IMG/VR virus record: IMGVR_UViG_3300014492_000028
Coordinates: 1 to 26,753 of that record
Length of the DNA: 26,753 nucleotides
Source: a virus
Strand: one strand, 5' to 3'
Shown piece by piece: positions 8,797 through 26,753 of the stretch; the first letter of the stretch is position 1; each line of letters starts with the position of its first letter. Both the position numbers and the translations under genes were made by a program. The notes under the pieces are model-generated. The model saw nothing but the letters and a program-made list of their open reading frames with translations. It ran no database searches and was not told the origin of the DNA.

Positions 8797-9255
8797 TTAC
8801 GTGGGACCAGCGCCATAGACGGGCGTGATCGAACCGTCGATAGCGATAGTGCAGCCGGACGCCATCAGCGCCTTGCCGATGCTCGCGTCAATCGGGAACT
8901 TGCTCAAGTACCCGTTGAACAGCAACTGACAGTTGTCGGTGCCGGACGCGAGCACGACTTTCCACTGCTGGAGCACGGGCGGCGCCGCGATGACCAGATT
9001 GAACAGGCCCTCGTCCTGCGTGCTGGACGGCTCGTAATACAGGTCGAACGTCATGTCGCCGGGGTTCAGCAGCGTGGCGAGTTTGCGGTGCGCCGTGCTG
9101 GTCTGGTTGGATACGTCGACGACATCAATCGCGATGCCGCCAAACTTGACGTTGCCGATACGTGCCTGAAGCACGTAAGTGGGAGGCGACGTTGGGCCGC
9201 CGAGATACAACTGGCTGTTGAAAGATGCGATTGCCGGAAGTGCTAATGAACTCAT
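8797..9255 (-). CDS. Major tail tube protein
   Basis: 152 residues, ATG 9255 with AGGAG 8 nt upstream. The pattern VDVSNQTSTAHRKLATLLNPGDMTFDLYYEP and later LFNGYLSKFPIDASIGKALM is that of lambda gpV-like/phi13-type tail tube proteins: a beta-barrel subunit with a long loop, whose second half holds a PIDASIGKA-like segment conserved in many tube proteins. It sits directly before the chaperones and tape measure, the canonical place for the tube gene. Size (150-200 aa) fits. Subunits should stack as hexamers around the tape measure. Confidence 0.9.
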   Translation of the reverse strand: MSSLALPAIASFNSQLYLGGPTSPPTYVLQARIGNVKFGGIAIDVVDVSNQTSTAHRKLATLLNPGDMTFDLYYEPSSTQDEGLFNLVIAAPPVLQQWKVVLASGTDNCQLLFNGYLSKFPIDASIGKALMASGCTIAIDGSITPVYGAGPT

Positions 9256-11417: not shown

Positions 11418-12845
11418 CTACGATCCGCTCCCGTTGGAACCCACCCAGCTTCTGCCGTCAATTGGCGATCCGCCCATCACGCCCATGATCTTGAGGTTCT
11501 GATTGTTGCTCCAGAAATTGCCCATGGTGGGGTCGGGGCCGCCGCCCATGCGTTGGGTCGTCGGAATCTCGCTGAAAAGCTGTGGCTCCTTGAATCCAGT
11601 CAATGCGCCCCATTCGACGCCGGGCCGCTCCTGAGACTTCGGATCGCAGACCAAGAACCAGGAGTGCGGATTGTTCGTCGCGACCAAAGTCAGGTACGGG
11701 TCATAGATCAGCGTAAGATTTTCCATGGCCCAGTTTTTGACACGCAGCAACTGGCCGATGGTATTGGAAGTGGATGTTCCCGCGCTACCGCCCTGGTTCG
11801 ATTGGAGGGTTTCGAGGGAGTTCGCCATACTCTTCGCGATGCCGTAGTCGCTCGCGCCGTACACGAGATACATCGGGGCGCCGATCATGATCGGATCACC
11901 GGTCGCGTCCAACTGGCCGGCCAGAATGGTGTAGGCGTCGACGATGGCCTGCATGCTGAGACGAGGATTACTTACGGTGGCGCCGTTCGCAGTGGTCAAC
12001 TGATTGTGGTAGCCCGACTGAAACAGAGGATTAGCGCTCGGGGTCGAAGTGTTCGGCCCGTTGATGTCGCAATACAGGCTGGTGATGAACTTGGCAATAC
12101 CGCGGTTGCCCTTGATGGCCAAGCGCTTTGGCACATCGCGGAAGATGCCCAGATCGTCGCCAACGAACGCCGCCCAGTTGATGCTAGCGGAAGACTGATA
12201 CAGCAGCGGCGAGTACGTCACTGCCGCGGTGCTGGTGGCCGATGTCGGCGGAATCGCTCCGTTCTGCGGGGCGGGTCCTAACATCGCCTGCTGCGGAGGC
12301 GGTGCGCCAGGATCGCTGCCGGTGTACGGCGTCACGAGGCCGTCGTACATATAGCGCTTGACCTGCCGGAAGTCGCGCAGATCCTTGTCCATGACCAGCG
12401 GCATATTGGTGATGGGCCACGCCGCGAAGTTGCTGTAGTACAGCCGGTCGAGCACGTCGGCGTACAGCGCCTGATAGTCGGTGACCGCCATCGTTTCGCG
12501 CAAGGACATCTGACGTCCCTGGTTGCTGTAGTAGGCGGGGTAGGTCTGGCGCATGTGCTCGACAAGCACCGGATTGCGCGGATTCAGCGCCTCACGCCAG
12601 AACACGGGATCGAGCTTGCCGCTTATGACATCGCTCAGGACTCGCGCGGCCTCGTTGACGCGCCGGTTGTGCTGCGCGTTCGACTTCTGCGCGGCAAGCT
12701 GATATCCCCGCAGGTGAGGGGTCAGCGCGTCCGTCGACCAGTCTGCAAGCTGGCCGGCGAACTCCATGGCGCCACCGTTGCGTGGCATCCCTCCGAACTG
12801 ATCGGTACCGGGGGTAAATTCGGGTGCTCCAATTTTCAGCGGCAT
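11418..12845 (-). CDS. Major capsid protein (HK97-like fold expected)
   Basis: 475 residues from ATG 12845 with GGAG 9 nt upstream; the TTG at 12860 would overlap the decoration gene. The N-terminal ~90 residues are helical (delta-domain-like, LRGYQLAAQKSNAQHNRRVNEAARVL). The main domain contains FVGDDLGIFRDVPKRLAIKGNRGIAKFI and late motifs LRVKNWAMENLTLIYDPYLT and HSWFLVCDPKSQERPGVEWGAL typical of HK97-fold capsid proteins (long spine helix, then the A domain). It sits after protease and decoration genes and before the connector block, and carries a strong terminator behind it. There is a Pro/Gly/Ala-rich insertion near residues 175-215. Function is safe; exact family not fixed. Confidence 0.9.
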   Translation of the reverse strand: MPLKIGAPEFTPGTDQFGGMPRNGGAMEFAGQLADWSTDALTPHLRGYQLAAQKSNAQHNRRVNEAARVLSDVISGKLDPVFWREALNPRNPVLVEHMRQTYPAYYSNQGRQMSLRETMAVTDYQALYADVLDRLYYSNFAAWPITNMPLVMDKDLRDFRQVKRYMYDGLVTPYTGSDPGAPPPQQAMLGPAPQNGAIPPTSATSTAAVTYSPLLYQSSASINWAAFVGDDLGIFRDVPKRLAIKGNRGIAKFITSLYCDINGPNTSTPSANPLFQSGYHNQLTTANGATVSNPRLSMQAIVDAYTILAGQLDATGDPIMIGAPMYLVYGASDYGIAKSMANSLETLQSNQGGSAGTSTSNTIGQLLRVKNWAMENLTLIYDPYLTLVATNNPHSWFLVCDPKSQERPGVEWGALTGFKEPQLFSEIPTTQRMGGGPDPTMGNFWSNNQNLKIMGVMGGSPIDGRSWVGSNGSGS

Positions 12846-12846
12846 T

Positions 12847-13248
12847 TTATGCGTCTCCAAATCGAATGCCGGTCGCGGTGTTGGTCGCGCCGGATGTCAC
12901 GCCGGGTCCGGTCTCGTCGATGCGACCAAACGGCGTGTCGGTGGTCGTGCCGGTGATCAGCAGACCGGTTGTTACGTTCGTGGTCGCGTCGAGAGTTCCG
13001 CTGGCATACAGCGAAGCGCCAGGTCCGAGTGCCTCTGGGGTGAATGGCGAGTGTGTCGAGGAACCTACCACGGTGCCAGTAAACGTGCCGCTGAAATAGA
13101 ACACCGCGCCGCCGCTGTTGCTCTGGTAGTCATTGAGCGCACAAGCAGGCGCGGTGCCAACGAGCACGAGGTCGCCGCTCTTGACTGTGGACGGGCAAAT
13201 GACGAATCTTGCGTTCGTCGGCGCTCCCATGTACAGTTGATCTTTCAC
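12847..13248 (-). CDS. Capsid decoration protein, DUF2190-like
   Basis: 133 residues from GTG 13248, one base after the protease stop, with GGTGA upstream. It shows the order seen in DUF2190/lambda gpD-neighbour proteins: a start like MKDQLYMGAPTNARF, then VKSGDLVLVGTAPACALNDY, a beta strand with VFYFSGTFTGTV, then GASLYASGTLDATTNVTTGLLITG. Members bind the outside of the capsid lattice (family knowledge). It ends one base before the capsid ATG, suggesting coupled translation. Confidence 0.78.
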   Translation of the reverse strand: MKDQLYMGAPTNARFVICPSTVKSGDLVLVGTAPACALNDYQSNSGGAVFYFSGTFTGTVVGSSTHSPFTPEALGPGASLYASGTLDATTNVTTGLLITGTTTDTPFGRIDETGPGVTSGATNTATGIRFGDA

Positions 13249-18151: not shown

Positions 18152-19171
18152 TCACTCCTCTTCGTCTTCAGAGCCGCTGGGTTTTCTGAAGTTCACGACG
18201 CATTGGCAGTTCGGGTGAGCCGTCGGCGCGTCATCACCGCTCGGGAAGTCATCGTCAATGTCGATCCATCCAGCCGCCTCGTTGTCTTCGCAGACTGGGC
18301 ACGGGTCGCCCGATTCGGTCTCCCAGGCGTGCTCATCGTAAAGCAGATCGAGTGCCGTCTCGCGCCGGCCAGCGTTGTATGCGTCGGCGGCCTCAGTTTG
18401 CGCAATCAACCCGGCGCGCGTCTCACTGAAGTCGTCGAACGTCTCAGTGATCGCTGACACGATGTCGTTGTAGCTGCCGCCCTTGTCCCACGCCGTCGCG
18501 ATGGAGTCCTGTAGCCGCTCGATACTGGTCTGATTCAAGCCTCCCGTGAGTTTCGTCAGGCTGTGCTTGCGCAAGTACTCCCCTGCCAGGTCCGCGCCGG
18601 TCGTGCCGCCGAGAGATTCCGCCGCCGCGGTAATCAGATCGGAGATGGCCGAATCGTACTCGCTGGTTTCGCCGGCGCTCGCGGAGAACGTCAGCGGGTG
18701 GAGCGATGTCGGCACCAGGGCGCGCGCGAAGGTCTTGCCGCCCTGCGAGGATTCTCGGAATTCCCGCCTGTCAGTGTAACCGCTGTGCGTAACATCGGGA
18801 CCGACAGGGGGAATTCCACGAGGGTTTTCGAGGCCCCCGCTCGCGCGATTCCCGATTTCCTCCCGTGCGCCGTGGCTGGCCATGTCACAGCCCTTTGGAC
18901 TCGACACGCCGGGTTGACTCCGGACGACTACGGACTCCATTATTGCACTCTTTGGCGGGTGCAAGATAAGCTGGCGCTTGATCTTCGGCTTTACCGCCGC
19001 CAGCGCCGTCTTGCGCTGCCGCTCGAAGTAGTGCGCGATCACGGCCTTGATGCGCTTGCGGGCCGGCGCGACATTCCGGGAGTGACGCGGGTGCTTCAGG
19101 CCCTTCGGAGCGGTCGCTTCGAGCAGCGCGGACAGGTCGTTCGCGGCGGATGTGATAGCGTGGAGGCTCAT
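18152..19171 (-). CDS. MuF-like minor head protein
   Basis: 339 residues from ATG 19171, which overlaps the KTSC gene stop as ATGA; a GTG at 19330 would run over that gene. The N-terminal ~100 residues are basic helix. The C-terminal domain starts near residue 245 with TRAGLIAQTEAADAYNAGRR, the MuF/SPP1 gp7 signature, followed by the metal-binding pattern C291-P-V-C294 ... H319-P-N-C322-x-C324 and an Asp/Glu tail. These proteins bind the portal and are packaged in small number; some eject with DNA (family knowledge). Only small genes separate it from the portal, as usual. Confidence 0.88.
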   Translation of the reverse strand: MSLHAITSAANDLSALLEATAPKGLKHPRHSRNVAPARKRIKAVIAHYFERQRKTALAAVKPKIKRQLILHPPKSAIMESVVVRSQPGVSSPKGCDMASHGAREEIGNRASGGLENPRGIPPVGPDVTHSGYTDRREFRESSQGGKTFARALVPTSLHPLTFSASAGETSEYDSAISDLITAAAESLGGTTGADLAGEYLRKHSLTKLTGGLNQTSIERLQDSIATAWDKGGSYNDIVSAITETFDDFSETRAGLIAQTEAADAYNAGRRETALDLLYDEHAWETESGDPCPVCEDNEAAGWIDIDDDFPSGDDAPTAHPNCQCVVNFRKPSGSEDEEE

Positions 19172-19638
19172 TTTCCCATCCGATGCACCGCGAACAGCGG
19201 CACGATGCGCCAATGCCTGGAGGGTCCGACCATCACCGGCTTGAAGTTCGTTCCGCATGCCGAGCACTCGAAGTGTTCGGCATTCGACGGCGCCCCACCG
19301 AAGAAACTCGTGAGTTGACGACGGCAGCACTTGTCCGCGTCCTCGTCGATCACGTTAAGCGGGCCGGGTGTCTCCACGGCCAGTGGAGCGGCCCGCTCTG
19401 GTTTGCTCTGGCTATCTTCCGCGTTACCTCCTTTCGTGATCAGAATTGCGGTGCATAAACCTAACCGCGGCAGCGTATGGCCCTTCGTCTCCGAGACGGA
19501 AAGAATGCACCATTCCGCAGCTGTGACGCTTGGATGCGCATATAGCGAGCCGTCCTTGTAGCGCACCAGCAGCACGCGTTCCTCTTCCAGGTACCCGATG
19601 GCCGCGATGTGCGAGGAGTCTACTGGTGTGAGTTTCAT
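19168..19638 (-). CDS. KTSC-domain protein with C-terminal cysteines
   Basis: 156 residues, ATG 19638 overlapping the previous stop as ATGA. The first ~48 residues follow the KTSC domain (VDSSHIAAIGYLEEERVLLV, then KDGSLYAHPSVTAAEW). The later part has CC104-105 and FECSACG (C125, C128), a possible zinc knuckle. KTSC domains are short beta-alpha modules often found in phage and RNA-associated proteins; their action is not established. Overlaps on both sides support expression in the portal operon. Confidence 0.75.
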   Translation of the reverse strand: MKLTPVDSSHIAAIGYLEEERVLLVRYKDGSLYAHPSVTAAEWCILSVSETKGHTLPRLGLCTAILITKGGNAEDSQSKPERAAPLAVETPGPLNVIDEDADKCCRRQLTSFFGGAPSNAEHFECSACGTNFKPVMVGPSRHWRIVPLFAVHRMGK

Positions 19639-20069
19639 ATGCGGGTGGCTCTGAAGAACGAACTGTAATTGCTCACGACCATCTTTTGGAACGCGTAGTT
19701 TTTGACCTTTCCGTCAATCACCTGTCCGACACCGCATGGCCCGACGAACCCACTGGGGGACTTGCCTCCGAACCAAGACACCTTGATGAACACTGCTCCG
19801 TTGTGAAATTGCGACTCCGTAACGATGCCAAGCAAGCTTCCGATTTCGTCGGTACCTTCAGGAGGGTACGTGGTCACTGTCGCGCCGAGCGCCGAGGTGG
19901 CCATAGTTTTCAGAGCCCCCTTGGAGTAACGACGTCCGCAGCTGTTCACGCTGCCGTCCGCTACTAGTATCCATTCGTTGACGCCGCCAGGACGACTTAT
20001 TTCCGCTATTGCCACTGCCGCGGTCGCAATCGCTCCGGCCGCGATCACTCCAAATGTTCGTCGTTTCAT
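19635..20069 (-). CDS. Exported/membrane protein with Tat-like N-terminus
   Basis: 144 residues from ATG 20069 with GGAG 9 nt upstream (an alternative ATG-like extension to 20111 has no site). It starts MKRRTFGVIAAGAIATAAV: twin arginines then a hydrophobic stretch of ~15 residues, i.e. a Tat-like signal or N-terminal anchor. The mature part contains VNSCGRRYSKGALKTMATSA, GIVTESQFHNGAVFIKVSW and GGKSPSGFVGPCGVGQ with two cysteines. No family recognised. Its ATGA overlap with the KTSC gene places it in the portal operon, where an exported product is unexpected. Confidence 0.65.
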   Translation of the reverse strand: MKRRTFGVIAAGAIATAAVAIAEISRPGGVNEWILVADGSVNSCGRRYSKGALKTMATSALGATVTTYPPEGTDEIGSLLGIVTESQFHNGAVFIKVSWFGGKSPSGFVGPCGVGQVIDGKVKNYAFQKMVVSNYSSFFRATRI

Positions 20070-20100
20070 CGCTGCACTCCAGTCTTCTAATCTCCAAGTT

Positions 20101-20325
20101 TCAATCTGCACCTTCCTTGTCGTAAATGCTGCCAGTGCGCACGATGGATAGTACTGAGCATTCCATCGTGCCTTCTTCCTTCAGCGGTCCTGTCACGATT
20201 TCTCCGTCCCATTCTCGGATATCTCCAGTGCGGGACACCAAGCGGAACGTTTGCATTACGGGAATCGCGAACAGTTCCGCGAACGCTGGCTCGGGAGTGG
20301 ATGTGAAATCCCAACTGATGTCCAT
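20101..20325 (-). CDS. Unrecognised 74-aa protein after portal
   Basis: ATG 20325 directly follows the portal TAG, with GGAG 5 nt upstream inside the portal end. The protein is a compact acidic beta-rich unit: MDISWDFTSTPEPAFAELFA, then RLVSRTGDIREWDGEIVTGP and an end with SIVRTGSIYDKEG. The WDGEIVTGPLKEEGT segment resembles strands of small barrels. No domain recognised; position suggests an assembly or structural accessory. Confidence 0.6.
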   Translation of the reverse strand: MDISWDFTSTPEPAFAELFAIPVMQTFRLVSRTGDIREWDGEIVTGPLKEEGTMECSVLSIVRTGSIYDKEGAD

Positions 20326-22371
20326 CTAATCTCCGATGTGCGCTTCGATAGCGTTGGCCAGCCGCGCGAAAGCCTCTTTCACTTTCGGCGCGGGCGTCTG
20401 CTGGTTCTGGTTCTGAGTCGCCGTCGCCATCGTAGCTTGCACATCTGCCGGGGTCGGCTGCACTCCCGGAACGGGTGGGGTTTTCGGTATCGGAGGCGGC
20501 AGCACTTCCTTGGTGCGGTCGGGGTCGTACTTGTCTTTACCGGTTGACGGATACATTTTCTCGACGAGTTCCTCTGCATTTTCGATGCCCAGTTGCTGCA
20601 TCAGCCACAGCACGCCTGTCTTCTCGTCGACGCCGACAATCTGGCCGCCTTTATTGTCCAACGTCATGGCCTCGACCCCAGCCTTAACCAACGCAGCCAT
20701 GTCGCCCTCGCGAATGGCCGGGAAGTTTACGCGGACCTCGATGTCAGTCGCGGCCTTCTTGCTCGCCTCGCGGAATACCCAATGTCTCGCACCTGTCTGG
20801 GTGCTCTTGATCTGACGCGGCGCCGCTATGATGCGCACGTCGCCCGGGAGCGCGGCGGCCTCCCGCAGTTTGCCGCTGGGCGCCGTGAGCGAGCGCTTGA
20901 GCATGAAGCCCACAATGACTGTGAGATCCTCGATCCACTCTTCCTGGATGCTGAGGAACACCGTTTCGGTCGGCCGGTCTAAGCTCATTGCGGTCGCAAG
21001 GTTGCCGGTGCTGACGTCGCCGAGGAATGTTTCTGGCATCCCGACAGTCGCACAGCACATCAACACATACCGCCGCACGTCCTCGGGGCTGAATGTTGCA
21101 CCCTGAACCTTGAAGGCGTCCATCGACGTGCCGGGTCCGCTGACCCACGTGGCACCGGCTACCGCCGGCGGGTTCGTGTCGTAGATCGGACTGCCGGGTC
21201 CCACCTGCGTTTCCAGTTGTTGTTTAATTCCTTCAATGGCCTGCTGACCGCCTTTAGTCGAAATCTTCGTCGCGAACTGCGAGAGAGACTGCCGGACGGA
21301 CGCGCACGCCTCCAAAAATCGCCGAGATTCCTTGGCCCAGTCCACCATCGGATAGACTGGCGGGCAGCCGAAAAGCCACTTGCCTACCGTGCCGATTTTG
21401 CGATGGTACACCGGCGCGTCCCACATGACCGGGTACCCCTTGATGGATTCCGGTTTCACCGTCGGCTCGTAGTCGATGGCCGGGTACCACGCCTGCATGG
21501 TCGTGGTGGCCTGCGATGCACTCACAGCATCGTGCGCCCGCTGCGTCCAGATGCGCTGGTAGTACTGCGGCACGTCGGCGTCGTCTGGATCGGTCCAGAT
21601 GTCCTGAATCTCGGTCGCATCGATGGTGCGAATATCGCACTCGCCGGTGGCCTTGTCCGGGAAGAACACCCAGAACAGATTGCCGTCGGTGTCCTTCGAC
21701 CGCTGCTGCGCGGTGAGTGCCACGTGCCCCAGCACTTTCTGATTGCGACGGATGAAATCCTGAATCGCATCGTTCGCTGTCTCGTCGTCGGTGGTGACGT
21801 CGAAGCCGCGGGCGAACACGTACTCCGCGCGAACGTTCACCAGGCGCCGCACGATCGGATTTTTTATCCAGTACAGCCGGCAGATGAGAATAATCTGCTG
21901 AATCCCCCAGCGCGTGAACTCCAGCCACGAGTAGTTGATTTCCCGCTGCCAGTTCACGTTCTGCAGGAGCAACTCGTACATGCCGTAGGCGCCGAGCGGC
22001 GAGACGTCGCCCACCGGCCCGGCCTCTTTCAGTCCCAGCGATTCCGCCAAACGCACGGGCAGGCGCACGGTCGGGGCCGCGCCGCCAATCTCCGCGCCGA
22101 CTTGCCACGGGCCAGCGCCACACATCGCGTTGGCCTCGACGATCTCGGCAATGTAGCGCTGGTGCTGTTCAAATCGCTGCGCGTCACGGGCCTGCTTGTC
22201 GTCGGCAATGTCCACCAGGGCGCGGTTGATCTCGCGTTGATCCTGAAGCCGGCGGTGCTCGCGTTGCAGGTCGTTTTCGAGGTGCTTGGCTTCGGACAGT
22301 GCGGTCGCGATGATGGCGGTAGGCTTCGGCTTTCGGATGCGGTCGATCAGGCTGCGGAGTCGTGCTCTCAT
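20326..22371 (-). CDS. Portal protein
   Basis: 681 residues from ATG 22371. Residues ~25-85 form a charged helix (LENDLQREHRRLQDQREINR). The body reads as a siphovirus portal: IKNPIVRRLVNVRAEYVFARG near 170, DGNLFWVFFPD, an AWYPAIDYEPT segment and the late SPEDVRRYVLMCCATVGMPETFLGDVSTGN near 420, then AMSLDRPTETVFLSIQEEW. The C-terminal ~100 residues are Pro/Gln-rich. Such proteins form the 12-mer through which DNA enters. No clear ribosome site lies before the ATG; a weak TAAACT hexamer is 7 nt upstream. Length is high but within the range for portals with an extended N-terminus. Downstream genes match. Confidence 0.9.
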   Translation of the reverse strand: MRARLRSLIDRIRKPKPTAIIATALSEAKHLENDLQREHRRLQDQREINRALVDIADDKQARDAQRFEQHQRYIAEIVEANAMCGAGPWQVGAEIGGAAPTVRLPVRLAESLGLKEAGPVGDVSPLGAYGMYELLLQNVNWQREINYSWLEFTRWGIQQIILICRLYWIKNPIVRRLVNVRAEYVFARGFDVTTDDETANDAIQDFIRRNQKVLGHVALTAQQRSKDTDGNLFWVFFPDKATGECDIRTIDATEIQDIWTDPDDADVPQYYQRIWTQRAHDAVSASQATTTMQAWYPAIDYEPTVKPESIKGYPVMWDAPVYHRKIGTVGKWLFGCPPVYPMVDWAKESRRFLEACASVRQSLSQFATKISTKGGQQAIEGIKQQLETQVGPGSPIYDTNPPAVAGATWVSGPGTSMDAFKVQGATFSPEDVRRYVLMCCATVGMPETFLGDVSTGNLATAMSLDRPTETVFLSIQEEWIEDLTVIVGFMLKRSLTAPSGKLREAAALPGDVRIIAAPRQIKSTQTGARHWVFREASKKAATDIEVRVNFPAIREGDMAALVKAGVEAMTLDNKGGQIVGVDEKTGVLWLMQQLGIENAEELVEKMYPSTGKDKYDPDRTKEVLPPPIPKTPPVPGVQPTPADVQATMATATQNQNQQTPAPKVKEAFARLANAIEAHIGD

Positions 22372-22419: not shown

Positions 22420-23217
22420 TCATGGCAGTGGACTCCTCGTGTCTTTCCAGCACAGCAACTTCGCCGGGTCCCAGCAGAAGTCAAAGCCCGGCGGGTATTG
22501 GTCGTAGTGGACTCCCCAGCCTTTCGCGTGCTCCTCTGCGCAGCGCCGCGCGAGCCGGGTCTCGATCTTCGCCTTGGCCTGGGCCGGCGTGCGGAATGGG
22601 TAGTGCTTCATCACGAACTTCTGCGGATAGACGCGCATGCCGGGGAACGTGATCTCGTGGCCGCCGCCGGCGAGTTGCACGCGCCCGACATTCTTCCATA
22701 GCTTGCGGTTCGGGATTCGGCTGATGCAGTCGGCCTCGTCGTAATGCTGGAAAAAACTCTCCGGCGTCATACTGCCGACCCAGCCGAGATCGGCCCATGT
22801 GCGATCCACGCAGTAGAACTGGAACACGCGGAAGTCGATGGCGTTGAAGCCTGCCATTTCGACGCCGCATACGTGATCCACGAGACGATAATTCGGGTTG
22901 GGACTGCGCCGCCACTCATCCGCGTCGCTGTACATGCACCAATCGGCGTCGGAGTCCGCGGCCAGATCCTCGATGCGCTTGAGGATCGCAGTGCAGTTCT
23001 GGATTGGGTCGGGGCCGGACTCCGGAAAACTCTCGAAAGTCACGCCCTCGCCCAGTCCGCGATGTAGGACGGAGAAAGCGTGCTCGATCCCGAAACTGCC
23101 GTCCTTGCTCCACCCGTCGAGGACATGCACCGCGCAGCCCTGCTCCTGCAGATGGCGCAGCGTGTGCGGGAGGATGTCGGCTTCGTTGAACACGGGCATG
23201 TAGACTTGGATCTTCAT
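22420..23217 (-). CDS. Glycosyltransferase, GT-A fold, family 2-like
   Basis: 265 residues, ATG 23217 overlapping the preceding stop as ATGA. MKIQVYMPVFNEADILPHTL is the family 2 start; WCMYSDADEW at ~93-102 gives the D-x-D metal site; VLDGWSKDGS and, after ~184, GGHEITFPG...KHYPFRTPAQAKAKIETR match the HYPxR-x-x-Q end of the Glyco_tranf_2_4 type. Sugar donor and acceptor cannot be inferred. It is the last gene of the cassette, 48 bp before the portal. It is cytoplasmic by composition. Confidence 0.85.
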   Translation of the reverse strand: MKIQVYMPVFNEADILPHTLRHLQEQGCAVHVLDGWSKDGSFGIEHAFSVLHRGLGEGVTFESFPESGPDPIQNCTAILKRIEDLAADSDADWCMYSDADEWRRSPNPNYRLVDHVCGVEMAGFNAIDFRVFQFYCVDRTWADLGWVGSMTPESFFQHYDEADCISRIPNRKLWKNVGRVQLAGGGHEITFPGMRVYPQKFVMKHYPFRTPAQAKAKIETRLARRCAEEHAKGWGVHYDQYPPGFDFCWDPAKLLCWKDTRSPLP

Positions 23218-23429
23218 TCATTAACGACCTTGGCTGGCGATACGAACGCCGCAATAACTTCAAGCATTTTGACTAAATCGTCTTTCCGTGGATACGCCTG
23301 ATAATGAATCCTGACCACGTCCCCCACGCGCGCCTCAATGATGATGTCGCAACACTGCTCAGGGACGAGACCAGCCTTGTGAAGGGATTCCCAGAGATCT
23401 ACGCTAGGCACGACTGTCGTTTGCGTCAT
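23214..23429 (-). CDS. Unrecognised 71-aa protein in sugar-modification cassette
   Basis: ATG 23429 and stop 23214 both lie in ATGA overlaps with the flanking methyltransferase and glycosyltransferase genes, the main evidence that it is real. The sequence (MTQTTVVPSVDLWESLHKAG ... CCDIIIEARVGDVVRIHYQA) has an N-terminal helix, then a beta hairpin with a CC pair and a short C-terminal helix. Layout is like a small regulatory or carrier protein, but no family is recognised. Confidence 0.6.
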   Translation of the reverse strand: MTQTTVVPSVDLWESLHKAGLVPEQCCDIIIEARVGDVVRIHYQAYPRKDDLVKMLEVIAAFVSPAKVVNE

Positions 23430-24034
23430 GACTTCCTCTCCCAGTACCAGAACGGCCCCACGTGCTGCGCGTCGGGCAGTAGGTCGTGCACCGCCTCAAT
23501 CACGCCGAAGCACGGTGTCACGCCGTCGGCCTCGAATCGCTGCGTGTAATCGTCGCCGCAGAGAATCACCTTCGCCTTGTCCTGATAAAGTTCGATGTCG
23601 TGACGACAACCGGCGTAGCTGTGGTCGCCATCGAGATACACCAGATCGGCGAATGGTACCTCACCGATGACGAATCGCGAGTGGCCCTTGATCGGCGTGA
23701 TCTTGTGCCAGACGCCGCTTCGCATCACGTTGTCCCGGAACAGCGGGAAGAAGTCGCGCGGCAGGTCCCAACGTCGCAGCGTGCCGACCAGATTGTTTTC
23801 GCTCTCGTATGTGGCGCCCTCGAACCAGGTGTCGACGCAGTAGACTTGTTGGATAGACTCGAACTGAGCAAACCAAACCGCCGACAGCCCAAGGAAAGAG
23901 CCTACTTCAACGACCGACTTTATCTCGCGCTCGCAAATCAGGCGAGTCAGTGTCAGGCGGTTGGCTTGCGCGAACCATCCGGGAATTAGCGGACTGGCGA
24001 TATTTGGAAATACATTGAAGACCGTATTGATCAT
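23426..24034 (-). CDS. Class I SAM-dependent methyltransferase (Methyltransf_24-like)
   Basis: 202 residues, ATG 24034 in an ATGA overlap. Motif I is VVEVGSFLGLSAVWFAQ (E43-V-G-S-F-L-G), motif II acid D68 in VYCVDTWFEG, and LVYLDGDHSYAGCRHDIELY at ~132-150 followed by GDDY (160-163) matches the Methyltransf_24 group, which methylates sugars and small molecules. This family often sits next to glycosyltransferases in glycan modification loci (family knowledge). Target unknown; a sugar hydroxyl is a reasonable inference from its neighbours. Confidence 0.85.
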   Translation of the reverse strand: MINTVFNVFPNIASPLIPGWFAQANRLTLTRLICEREIKSVVEVGSFLGLSAVWFAQFESIQQVYCVDTWFEGATYESENNLVGTLRRWDLPRDFFPLFRDNVMRSGVWHKITPIKGHSRFVIGEVPFADLVYLDGDHSYAGCRHDIELYQDKAKVILCGDDYTQRFEADGVTPCFGVIEAVHDLLPDAQHVGPFWYWERKS

Positions 24035-24822
24035 TTGCGACTCTTTCCTGGTGCGAAGCCGTGCAATTCCGGCCAGTGGCCGTGCTTCTCCATGAACAGT
24101 TCCTCGTGCGCTCTGACGTCGTGCGGATGATCGGGATCGTGGCGGAACGTGGACTTTAGGCCGGTCGACTCCGGCAAGTGGTCGACCAGCACGCCGTCGT
24201 ACACACCGAGCTTAAGGCCCGCCTGGCGGATGCGCAGCGAGTAGTCGTCGTCTTCGAGTCCGTAGCCGCGGGCACCCGGTCCGCCAGCGTTGACGCTGAA
24301 TCGCTCATCGAGCAGCCCGACGCGGTCGATGGTTGACCGCGGGATGTAGACGCATGCGAACACGAGCATGACTTTTTCTTCGCGGATCTCGTCGCCGCCG
24401 CGGTTAACCAGGTTGATGGTGCCGACTGATCCGTGCGTGAATCCGGGACACATCGCGCCATAGCCGAATAAGTTACAGGCATCGCTGAGAGAGTTGAACC
24501 CGAGATACGTCTTCAGTAGTGCATCGTCATTAAGTAGCACGACGTCAGGCCCCGCATCTCGCCCGATAATGTAGTTCCATTTTTCGCGACTACCTGCGAA
24601 GTTGATCCCGATATTGACGTTTCGCGCGAAGATGAACGGCTTTGCGCCTTCGATCCGCTGACAGTTGTTTCGGTTTAGCCAGTCACGGCTACTGCCATCC
24701 CATTCTATGCCGTCGTCTACGACGATAACCACAGCCGTCTCGCCCATCTCGCGCAGAGTATCGACACACTTAGTCAAGTTGCCGATGTTCTTCGAGCAGA
24801 TCACGATAGAGTAGGGGTTCAC
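24031..24822 (-). CDS. Glycosyltransferase family 2-like with C-terminal galactosyltransferase-like block
   Basis: 263 residues from GTG 24822 in a GTGA overlap, with GGAGG 7 nt upstream; the ATG-like frame to 24918 runs over the previous gene. SIVICSKN and TAVVIVVDDG form the nucleotide-binding start, VVLLNDDALL (N98-D-D) the metal site, and YGLEDDDYSLRIRQAGLKLG (~187-206) the ED acid cluster seen in N-acetylgalactosaminyltransferase-type GT2 enzymes. Donor and acceptor unknown. Both flanks overlap neighbours, so it belongs to the cassette. Confidence 0.85.
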   Translation of the reverse strand: MNPYSIVICSKNIGNLTKCVDTLREMGETAVVIVVDDGIEWDGSSRDWLNRNNCQRIEGAKPFIFARNVNIGINFAGSREKWNYIIGRDAGPDVVLLNDDALLKTYLGFNSLSDACNLFGYGAMCPGFTHGSVGTINLVNRGGDEIREEKVMLVFACVYIPRSTIDRVGLLDERFSVNAGGPGARGYGLEDDDYSLRIRQAGLKLGVYDGVLVDHLPESTGLKSTFRHDPDHPHDVRAHEELFMEKHGHWPELHGFAPGKSRK

Positions 24823-25154
24823 TTCACCGCCTCCATCATCACTTCGCCAGAGACTACAAATTCTGCATTGACCATTAAAGGAGGGAAGGCCTTGATATCG
24901 AACCGTATCATGAAGCAACTCATGCGGTACCGGTACGTGGTTCCAGTGTCATCTGCGTTGCGCCAATACAGTACAGCAGACTGCTTCTTGGGAGGACAAT
25001 CCATAATCGTTGGGAGGTGGTCGAGTGGCTCAAACAGCTTTACCTTTGGGACTTCAATGAGCGATGCTTGAGCCTCGGGAACCGGCAGGCCGCCGATGAT
25101 CGGCACAACCGCCGCGCCAACTCCGAACAGTTGCAGCAAATCGCGCCGTTTCAT
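24819..25154 (-). CDS. Exported protein with Tat-type signal
   Basis: 111 residues from ATG 25154 in an ATGA overlap with the methyltransferase. MKRRDLLQLFGVGAAVVPII with AQA near residues 28-30 is a good twin-arginine signal (R-R-D-L-L) with signal peptidase I site. The mature ~80 residues: EVPKVKLFEPLDHLPTIMDC, then SAVLYWRNADDTGTTYRYRM and a short hydrophobic beta end. No domain recognised. A periplasmic protein inside a cytoplasmic glycan cassette suggests an envelope target, which is inference. Confidence 0.65.
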   Translation of the reverse strand: MKRRDLLQLFGVGAAVVPIIGGLPVPEAQASLIEVPKVKLFEPLDHLPTIMDCPPKKQSAVLYWRNADDTGTTYRYRMSCFMIRFDIKAFPPLMVNAEFVVSGEVMMEAVK

Positions 25155-25873
25155 TTCACCGCCTCCAGCCGCGCCGCGAACTTCCAAACCTCACAGCTCA
25201 CGCCACAGTACTGTGGAGCGTGTGCGCATGTGCTAGCCGCCATTTCGGTGTATTTCCGCTCTGTCACTCCGAGCACATTAAACCGCGCCGTGATGCCGTA
25301 CGCCGCGGCAAAGCGCTTGTGCGCCGGCGATCCGTCAGTGTAGTACTGGAGCGCGTTCGGCGTCCAAGATGACACGTGCTGTGGATCTTGGAAGTGTCCC
25401 GCGCCCTTCGCCGCGTCGGGGCACTCCATGGTCAGGGTGCCGCCGGGCTTGAGCACGCGCCACGACTCGTTCATGACGTGGATGCGGCCCGACCAGTGAC
25501 GCTCGTCGAATCCCCTGGCGCGGCCGGGCAGATACTCTCCGCGACGATCTTCCATGCACTGCCCGCACCACTGATCACCCGAATGCTGACAATCTCCAAT
25601 GTGCTCGAAGATGTCCGCGGCGTAGATCTCGTCCACGCTGGAGTCGTCCCAGGGCCACGGCAGCGCCAGGTCGGCTTGTTGGAATTTGTACGCGACCACG
25701 CTCTTGACAGTACCGAGGCAGCCCTTGCCGTCCGGTCCGCGGCGTGTCGGATCGACCTCGATCTGCGCTACCTTCGTGTCCCCGAACAGCACCGCCTCTT
25801 TGCCCAGCGCGATGTCCACGTTCAGCCACTCGCCGCCGCGCAAAGAATCACTACAGCCAAGGTTTAGCCTCAT
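25151..25873 (-). CDS. Class I SAM-dependent methyltransferase with cysteine insert
   Basis: 240 residues from ATG 25873 in an ATGA overlap; the longer frame to 26101 is a shadow of the next gene. MRLNLGCSDSLRGGEWLNVD is motif I with D20 binding ribose; IYAADIFEHI (~83-92) and WRVLKPGGTLTMECPDAAKG (~138-157) are Methyltransf_11 motifs. Between them lies a short Cys/His stretch, C95-x-H97 and C103-x-x-C106, possibly a zinc site, and TCAHAPQYCGVSC near 216-227 adds more. This is unusual for the fold. Target unknown. Confidence 0.83.
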   Translation of the reverse strand: MRLNLGCSDSLRGGEWLNVDIALGKEAVLFGDTKVAQIEVDPTRRGPDGKGCLGTVKSVVAYKFQQADLALPWPWDDSSVDEIYAADIFEHIGDCQHSGDQWCGQCMEDRRGEYLPGRARGFDERHWSGRIHVMNESWRVLKPGGTLTMECPDAAKGAGHFQDPQHVSSWTPNALQYYTDGSPAHKRFAAAYGITARFNVLGVTERKYTEMAASTCAHAPQYCGVSCEVWKFAARLEAVK

Positions 25874-26697
25874 AGACTGACCCTCTTTCCCATCACTCTC
25901 GTGCAGAAGACGTCGAATTCGTTCGCGCGGCGCCATACATCGCCGGCCAGCATCACCTCGCGGGGAATCTGCTCCGTGCCGCCTGCGTGCATCTGGCAGA
26001 CCATGCGCGGAGAGTCGTCGCGCGTGACAGCGGCAGGAGCCCAAGGCGCCTTTGGGATACTCGACACGCCCAGGCACTTCTTCGCGTTCTTCAGCCACCA
26101 ACGTTGGTCCTCATGCGGCGCGTCGTCGAACGGGCACGCCTCCCAGGATGCTCGCGTGTAGAGCATCGATGCTCCGGCACACCATCGCGGTTCGTGGTTG
26201 TGGTATATCCACGATTCTCCGAGGTTCTCGCAGTCGGGGGCGGGCGTTTGCCATTCGCCTTTGACATGCGCGTTGAAATGACGCGTGTCCCAGAAAAGCA
26301 ACTCGCGGTATCCGACGCACTGCTTGCCCGACGCTTGGAGTAGCGCGACCTGCTCTTCGAGCCGGCGGGAGTGAGACCAATCGTCCGAGTCGAAGTGCGC
26401 GATGAGATTGGCGTTAAAATGATCCACCGCGCACCAATTAGCAGCGTTACGCAGCGCGCCGATTGTGGCCCCGTTCATGTCAGGCATCCACACCGTGGTG
26501 ACGTTATATTCGCCGTAAGGAGTCCTCTTGACTGGCTCTTTGCCAGAGTCCAGGATTAGCAATAACTTGGCAACGTACGTCTGTGCTTTGTAGCTTGCGA
26601 TAGCGCGGTTCACCATTTCGGCACGACCGTTGACCAGCATCACGCAGCAGACTGTCGGACTCATTTGGAACTCCGGATATTCGTGCGCCTGGCTCAT
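25870..26697 (-). CDS. Glycosyltransferase family 2-like
   Basis: 275 residues from ATG 26697, placed in an ATGA overlap with the partial gene upstream; an ATG-like start at 26718 would add seven residues and overlap that gene more. VCCVMLVNGRAEMVNRAIAS is the family-2 start, LIAHFDSDDW (D103-S-D-D106) the metal site, and DDAPHEDQRWWLKN (~191-204) the ED acid for catalysis. Several cysteines and a MHAGGTEQIP end. The acceptor is unknown. Confidence 0.85.
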   Translation of the reverse strand: MSQAHEYPEFQMSPTVCCVMLVNGRAEMVNRAIASYKAQTYVAKLLLILDSGKEPVKRTPYGEYNVTTVWMPDMNGATIGALRNAANWCAVDHFNANLIAHFDSDDWSHSRRLEEQVALLQASGKQCVGYRELLFWDTRHFNAHVKGEWQTPAPDCENLGESWIYHNHEPRWCAGASMLYTRASWEACPFDDAPHEDQRWWLKNAKKCLGVSSIPKAPWAPAAVTRDDSPRMVCQMHAGGTEQIPREVMLAGDVWRRANEFDVFCTRVMGKRVSL

Positions 26698-26753
26698 TCG
26701 CCGCTCCTGATCTTCCACTCGATATAATCACTCGCCTGATTCCAGCCATTCAC
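26694..26753 (-). CDS. 3' end of another cassette gene (5' end outside window)
   Basis: On the minus strand the frame from the right edge reads VNGWNQASDYIEWKIRSGE and stops at TGA 26696-26694, overlapping the glycosyltransferase ATG as ATGA. Only 19 residues are visible, so family is unknown, but the overlap shows the cassette continues to the right. Confidence 0.55.
   Translation of the reverse strand: MNGWNQASDYIEWKIRSGE

Follow-up and report, generated by a model that had tools for sequence, protein, structure and literature searches.

Why should a phage place a set of sugar-handling genes directly in front of its portal gene? The question is raised by a 26,753-base virus record from IMG/VR (IMGVR_UViG_3300014492_000028, positions 1 to 26,753; hereafter the window), in which a cassette of seven genes runs on the minus strand from 26697 to 22420 (Table 1, coordinates after refinement of the gene starts). 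The cassette encodes three GT2-type glycosyltransferases (GTs), two methyltransferases, one protein with a twin-arginine (Tat) type signal and one unknown protein of 71 amino acids (aa), and our comparisons suggest that it builds a methylated glycan on a protein of the virion, probably of the head, a reading to which we give a probability of roughly 0.6. An earlier note on this DNA had described seven overlapping genes ahead of the portal. All seven open reading frames (ORFs) are indeed found, in the transcription order GT_A, MT11, Tat-type protein, GT_B, MT24, u71 and GT_C; each of the six junctions is a 4-bp stop/start overlap (ATGA or GTGA), a gap of 48 bp separates GT_C from the portal gene, and the portal assignment is equally sound.

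The same note took the cassette to occupy the place of the terminase, and on this point it was mistaken. A contig that is 100% identical over 6,884 bases (IMGVR_UViG_3300037199_000154, hereafter L002) lengthens the window by 2,572 bases and carries, in this order, TerS, TerL (overlapping by 4 bp), a short ORF resembling a ribbon-helix-helix protein, an ORF of 158 aa and then the cassette, both terminase genes lying about 1-2.6 kb past the right edge of the window. The cassette thus separates TerL from the portal gene and has not replaced the terminase. Scans with the portal, GT_A, GT_B and GT_C returned more than 100 viral loci, and the gene order of relatives past the right edge tells the same story: after removal of duplicates, GT_A lies between TerL and the portal gene in 19 of 20 distinct loci showing both, in intervals of 4.1-9.0 kb, the exception (L159) having GT_A upstream of TerL. 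Some of these loci had been picked up with cassette proteins, which makes the scan with the portal alone the fairer sample; there, of 32 loci with at least 8 kb upstream, 27 have GT_A on that side of the portal, another four hold other cassette genes, and the last (L161, a portal relative accompanied by an integrase) has no recognisable glycan cassette upstream, which makes it a ready comparison for the role of the cassette. In the phylogeny of GT_A, 49 of 51 sequences of the lineage fall into one clade (support 100/99, apart from one unassigned row), which argues that the first gene of the cassette was inherited with the lineage; judging from this tree, GT_A is ancestral. A GT/methyltransferase cassette between TerL and portal is therefore a trait of the lineage, and since relatives carry it in phage structural operons, the refuting case raised by the note, a cassette confined to host genomes and remote from phage genes, is excluded. 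Searches of isolate phages, with DNA and with the GT_A, GT_B and GT_C proteins, gave no match. The nearest isolate phages of the portal family share 25-31% identity (Methanoculleus virus Blf4, Microcystis phage MinS1, Arthrobacter phage Kukla, Glutamicibacter phage Montesquieu and Caudovirus D_HF5_3); in contrast to the cassette-bearing lineage, their portal gene comes right after TerL or with two short ORFs intervening, and their annotation shows no glycosyltransferase in between.

The enzymatic content proposed by the note is borne out by homologue alignments, by GT2 Pfam matches and, for MT24, by a match above the Pfam cut-off. MT24 is the sole cassette protein to reach that cut-off as a single sequence (Methyltransf_24, E 8.9e-11), and its relatives among solved structures are O-methyltransferases. 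GT_A, GT_B, GT_C and MT11 taken singly fall under it, and their assignments rest on homologue alignments and on the Pfam matches of the homologues. For GT_A (E 1.5e-4 against Glycos_transf_2), GT2 models match 33 of 35 homologues and D103/D105/D106 are invariant in 35 aligned sequences; for GT_C (E 3.3e-4 against Glyco_tranf_2_4), they match 30 of 31 homologues of its type and the DADEW motif is invariant in the alignment. GT_B, with homologues of 46-71% identity in the same position, keeps N98 D99 D100 and E190 D191 invariant and reaches E 0.0028 against a PHROG glycosyltransferase. All three transferases thus combine a profile match with a conserved DxD-type motif, the Pfam support for GT2 being weak for GT_B. 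MT11 matches Pfam below threshold (E 0.0015), its LNLGCS..NVD motif is invariant among 6 homologues, and S-adenosylmethionine (SAM)-binding motifs are kept in the alignments of both methyltransferases. Ratios of nonsynonymous to synonymous substitution (dN/dS) against relatives of 0.07-0.35 across the five cassette enzymes (MT24 0.07, MT11 0.24) indicate purifying selection, and hence enzymes that are maintained.

The cassette has conserved ends and variable contents. Our survey covered 65 intervals with 640 ORFs, many of the intervals truncated where the contig stops. The cassette begins with GT_A, and in 59 of the 65 the gene ahead of the portal is GT_C or c0, a relative of it (hhalign probability 97.8% between the two). 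Between these ends lie FkbM, TylF and Methyltransf_24 methyltransferases, NAD-dependent epimerases, an RmlD/methyltransferase fusion, Gfo/Idh/MocA oxidoreductases, cupin/FdtA-like proteins, PIG-L deacetylase and a TOD1/MUCI70-type glycosyltransferase, along with HNH-like ORFs, a label assigned by eye. To judge from their families, these enzymes are of the kinds that the synthesis, transfer and O-methylation of unusual sugars would call for, and we counted the recurrence of methyl- and rare-sugar enzymes in the intervals in favour of a virion glycan. Three further families common there (c4, c5 and c7) have acidic D-x-D-like motifs and, where tested, no significant Pfam or PDB match; a tally of glycosyltransferases per interval was discarded, as it had counted c4 and c7 among them.

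What, then, would the conserved outer transferases do? Against solved structures, the profile of the GT_C/c0 family finds GmaR best (E 5.6e-14, 55.5 bits), followed by 7msk (1.4e-9, 41 bits), which we take to be a ThuS-type enzyme, chondroitin synthase (8.6e-7, 31.9 bits) and SunS (5.5e-6, 29.2 bits). By these best matches the family appears nearest to protein and peptide glycosyltransferases of the GmaR and SunS type. The likeness to GmaR and the SunS/ThuS-type enzymes, among the closest solved structures, lies in the nucleotide-binding half; unlike GmaR, which has tetratricopeptide repeat (TPR) and antirepressor domains, GT_C is about 265-300 aa long and has neither. The glycosyltransferase domain of GmaR is reported to add N-acetylglucosamine to flagellin (PMC9638930). 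Among solved structures, the GT_A profile finds chain builders best, heparosan synthase B at 1.9e-9 and SpsA at 1.5e-6; GmaR scores far below them. The pair of likenesses suggests that GT_C initiates and GT_A extends the glycan.

The most persuasive indication of the target comes from a second, unrelated lineage. Many matches of GT_B come from larger phages with a TerL (phrog_9), portal (phrog_12) and capsid (phrog_10) of other families, and in these the major capsid gene is followed by GT_A, often MT11, GT_B and finally c0/GT_C. GT_A lies 1.4-2.5 kb downstream of the start of the capsid gene in all 15 distinct loci, and c0/GT_C lies within 9 kb of it in 9 of 10. Since these loci were found through GT_B, they tell where the cassette sits and not what share of the lineage carries it. 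That the same families are linked to head genes in two lineages is our strongest argument for a head protein as target.

The activity, sugars, order of action, acceptor and benefit that we infer would be as follows. Collinear with the packaging and head genes, the cassette would be the virion-glycosylation unit of the head operon. GT_C would place a first sugar, in the cytoplasm, on serine or threonine of an abundant head protein, with host nucleotide sugars as donors; GT_A and GT_B would lengthen the chain, and MT24 and MT11 would cap it by O-methylation. The acceptor might be the major capsid protein or a decoration protein, for which the small Ser/Thr-rich protein encoded just before the capsid gene is a possible candidate, or perhaps the tail tube protein. 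Swapping of the middle genes among relatives would give each phage a different methylated glycan, which could plausibly shield the particle or tune its adhesion. Collagen-like Gly-X-Y repeat proteins adjoin glycan cassettes in the second lineage and elsewhere (L043:6999-8177, L184:2-1507, L059:12808-14787 and L082:12021-13858). Such repeats are glycosylated in some bacteria, so these proteins too are possible acceptors.

Several points weigh against this account. The match to GmaR is limited to about 130 residues of the glycosyltransferase domain, and the eight sequences closest to GT_C, taken alone, match GmaR at E 0.91 only. AlphaFold models of GT_A and GT_C, built on shallow alignments, were too poor for use (pLDDT, the predicted local distance difference test, of 43 and 46). 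L161 indicates that the cassette is not indispensable to the lineage, and a position in the head operon suggests timing rather than target. We also rejected a Ser/Thr-rich capsid C-terminus as signature of the acceptor; it is enriched (4.6 vs 2.6 residues per 20), yet it also occurs in isolates devoid of the cassette and so does not discriminate.

The note had named virion, host envelope and DNA as possible targets. Of these the virion fares best, whereas DNA and a lipid-linked host surface are disfavoured, no base modifier and no GtrA having been found in a search of 29 relatives, mostly of near-genome length (38-86 kb), whose records may be incomplete, so that negatives carry limited weight. 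An unlikely alternative to virion glycosylation is that late soluble glycosyltransferases and methyltransferases remodel precursors of host lipopolysaccharide or exopolysaccharide and thereby block superinfection or the re-adsorption of released particles. A host-surface role has been given to a Gratiaviridae phage glycosyltransferase encoded between portal and capsid genes (PMC8008677), GT_A resembles polysaccharide synthases, conserved ends with variable content recall capsule or O-antigen loci, and the Tat-signal protein implies some export. The comparison with serotype-conversion gtrABC clusters, which are likewise phage-borne glycosyltransferases, goes the other way: the GtrA flippase was found in 0/29 relatives (the control matched in 7 genomes), the transferases of the window show no transmembrane-like segments, the closing transferase is nearest to protein glycosyltransferases, and whereas gtrABC belongs to temperate phages and lies near the integrase, a tyrosine integrase is present in only 4/29 relatives and the soil cassette sits in the packaging operon. 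Genes aimed at host or defence proteins are usually early. It is improbable that the cassette glycosylates such a protein, or disturbs host sugar pools at assembly time, and leaves the particle unmodified; the likeness of the GT_C family to protein glycosyltransferases does not single out one protein, but in two lineages unrelated to each other the cassette accompanies portal or capsid genes. We hold it very improbable that the enzymes hypermodify a DNA base against restriction. Phage glycosyltransferases are able to glucosylate DNA (summarised in PMC12619734), the interval of L012 holds a DNA (N4/N6) methylase, and in LuckyBarnes, a distant portal relative, a predicted dCMP-hydroxymethylase is paired with two glycosyltransferases (PMC6588365). 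Nevertheless, the thymidylate-synthase/dCMP-hydroxymethylase family was found in 0/29 relatives (control matched in 9/14), Tet/JBP dioxygenase was in 0/29, a count that is void as evidence because no control genome matched either, and the methyltransferases are of O-methyltransferase, FkbM and TylF types. Scarcely credible, finally, is a carbohydrate auxiliary metabolic gene cluster, even though GT2 genes are listed as carbon-utilisation genes of this kind in soil viral operational taxonomic units (PMC11924767): transferases and methyltransferases are biosynthetic, no hydrolases occur among the recognised interval families, and the cassette has a fixed place in the packaging-head operon.

Glycosylation of the virion has its closest precedent in the cluster O mycobacteriophages Corndog and Catdawg, for which the authors, seeing that capsid peptides were scarce, suggested that the capsid is modified (PMC4351075). 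Later work, as cited in PMC12363180, is reported to show that virion proteins of Corndog are glycosylated and that the glycosyltransferase gp38 is essential for capsid glycosylation. Both phages have one O-methyltransferase and three glycosyltransferases in overlapping genes inside the portal-capsid operon, and the glycosyltransferase and methyltransferase genes of the soil cassette are likewise embedded in a head operon. The cassettes differ in place, between portal and protease in Corndog and Catdawg and between TerL and portal in the soil phages, and in content, which is far more variable in the latter. The Catdawg enzymes are unmatched by the GT_A, GT_C, MT24 and MT11 profiles of the window; they are matched by the TylF family of its relatives (46 bits) and weakly by a widened GT_B profile (18 bits). 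By analogy, the soil cassette most likely works like that of Corndog while standing outside that gene set, with mostly unrelated enzymes. Among the open papers that we searched, none described a glycan cassette between TerL and portal. Its parts are ordinary; their arrangement is unusual and consistent. The odds seem to us even that, in this large and uncultured lineage of soil phages, the conserved glycosyltransferases at either end, the final one initiating on protein, enclose exchangeable sugar and methyl genes and so endow every phage with a methylated capsid glycan of its own; an unrelated lineage has this set tied to its capsid gene. The arrangement resembles a capsule locus, and as part of the same proposal it could, with equal chances for and against, be a glycotype locus inside the head operon.

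The remaining members of the cassette are less constant. The note saw one pathway in the close coupling of the genes; the coupling is real and the seven genes may form one pathway, but neither the Tat-type protein, whose homologues are scattered, nor the 71-aa ORF is a conserved cassette member in relatives. Homologues of u71 were absent among the relatives searched, except in the identical contig L002. The Tat-type protein matches TAT_signal below threshold, and its homologues share RRD.L..FG.GA..VP and form a phage-only family (L066:14265-14690, L131:12249-12596, L005:7528-7929, L163:4961-5587, L068:13862-14290 and L067:13965-14354). Its gene is flanked by a short direct repeat, TGGAGGCGGTGAA(A/G)TGA, at 24823-24834 and 25155-25166, each copy being the ribosome-binding and stop/start junction of the gene; where relatives lack the gene at this point, they have a single, similar junction. 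It looks like the gene was inserted through duplication of its own junction. Members of this family occur in or near glycan cassettes and once directly behind a portal. In the window, a second protein with a twin-arginine-like N-terminus (MKRRTFGVIAAGAIATAAVAIA), free of family matches, is encoded at 19635-20111 just behind the portal. TerL itself comes in two different profile families, as in L002:358-1602 vs L012:794-2224 (and L005, L010, L045 and L115). Members of either family occupy the same position, with related TerS, cassette and portal genes around them, which looks like an exchange of TerL within the lineage. As for the host, a prophage-based search covering 396 genomes of the phylum to which L109 belongs found the lineage portal in only one of them; L109 is a 3.9 kb contig of an Acidobacteriia metagenome-assembled genome and carries the portal of the first lineage; L184, a contig from the same phylum, has the portal of the second lineage and GT_A. 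These two contigs are suggestive of Acidobacteriota hosts.

Table 1. Cassette genes and structural genes of the window.
Feature	Coordinates	Strand	Description
GT_A	25870..26697	-	275 aa; GT2-type glycosyltransferase; first gene of the cassette
MT11	25151..25873	-	240 aa; SAM methyltransferase, Methyltransf_11-like
Tat-type small protein	24819..25154	-	111 aa; twin-arginine-type N-terminus MKRRDLLQLFGVGAAVVPIIGGLPVPEAQA
GT_B	24031..24822	-	263 aa; GTG start; GT2-type glycosyltransferase with NDD and GxED motifs
MT24	23426..24034	-	202 aa; Methyltransf_24 O-methyltransferase-like enzyme
u71	23214..23429	-	71 aa; unknown protein
GT_C	22420..23217	-	265 aa; GT2-type glycosyltransferase; final gene ahead of the portal
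Portal protein	20326..22371	-	PHROG 10963 portal, E 4.8e-55; flanks the cassette downstream
Mu F-like minor head protein	18152..19330	-	Pfam Phage_Mu_F, E 3.3e-8; structural context
Small Ser/Thr-rich (26%) protein	12847..13248	-	directly before the capsid gene; head decoration matched weakly, E 0.12; may be a decoration protein and accept the glycan
Major capsid protein	11418..12860	-	Pfam Phage_capsid_4, E 1e-16; PHROG major head and protease protein, E 2.8e-12; candidate acceptor
Tail tube protein	8797..9255	-	PHROG 158, E 2.8e-8; Pfam Phage_TTP_11, E 2.5e-5; alternative candidate acceptor

To our knowledge, phage-encoded glycosylation of the virion has been shown for few phages only, chiefly mycobacteriophages. 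The families and gene orders compared here suggest that virion glycosylation with a variable methylated glycan may be the rule in a whole lineage of soil phages and present in another, unrelated one. If this is true, many glycosyltransferases of soil viromes now filed as auxiliary metabolic genes of the carbon cycle would be genes of the particle coat, and soil viruses may have coat types just as bacteria have capsule types, with consequences for the survival of particles, their adsorption to soil and the recognition of hosts.

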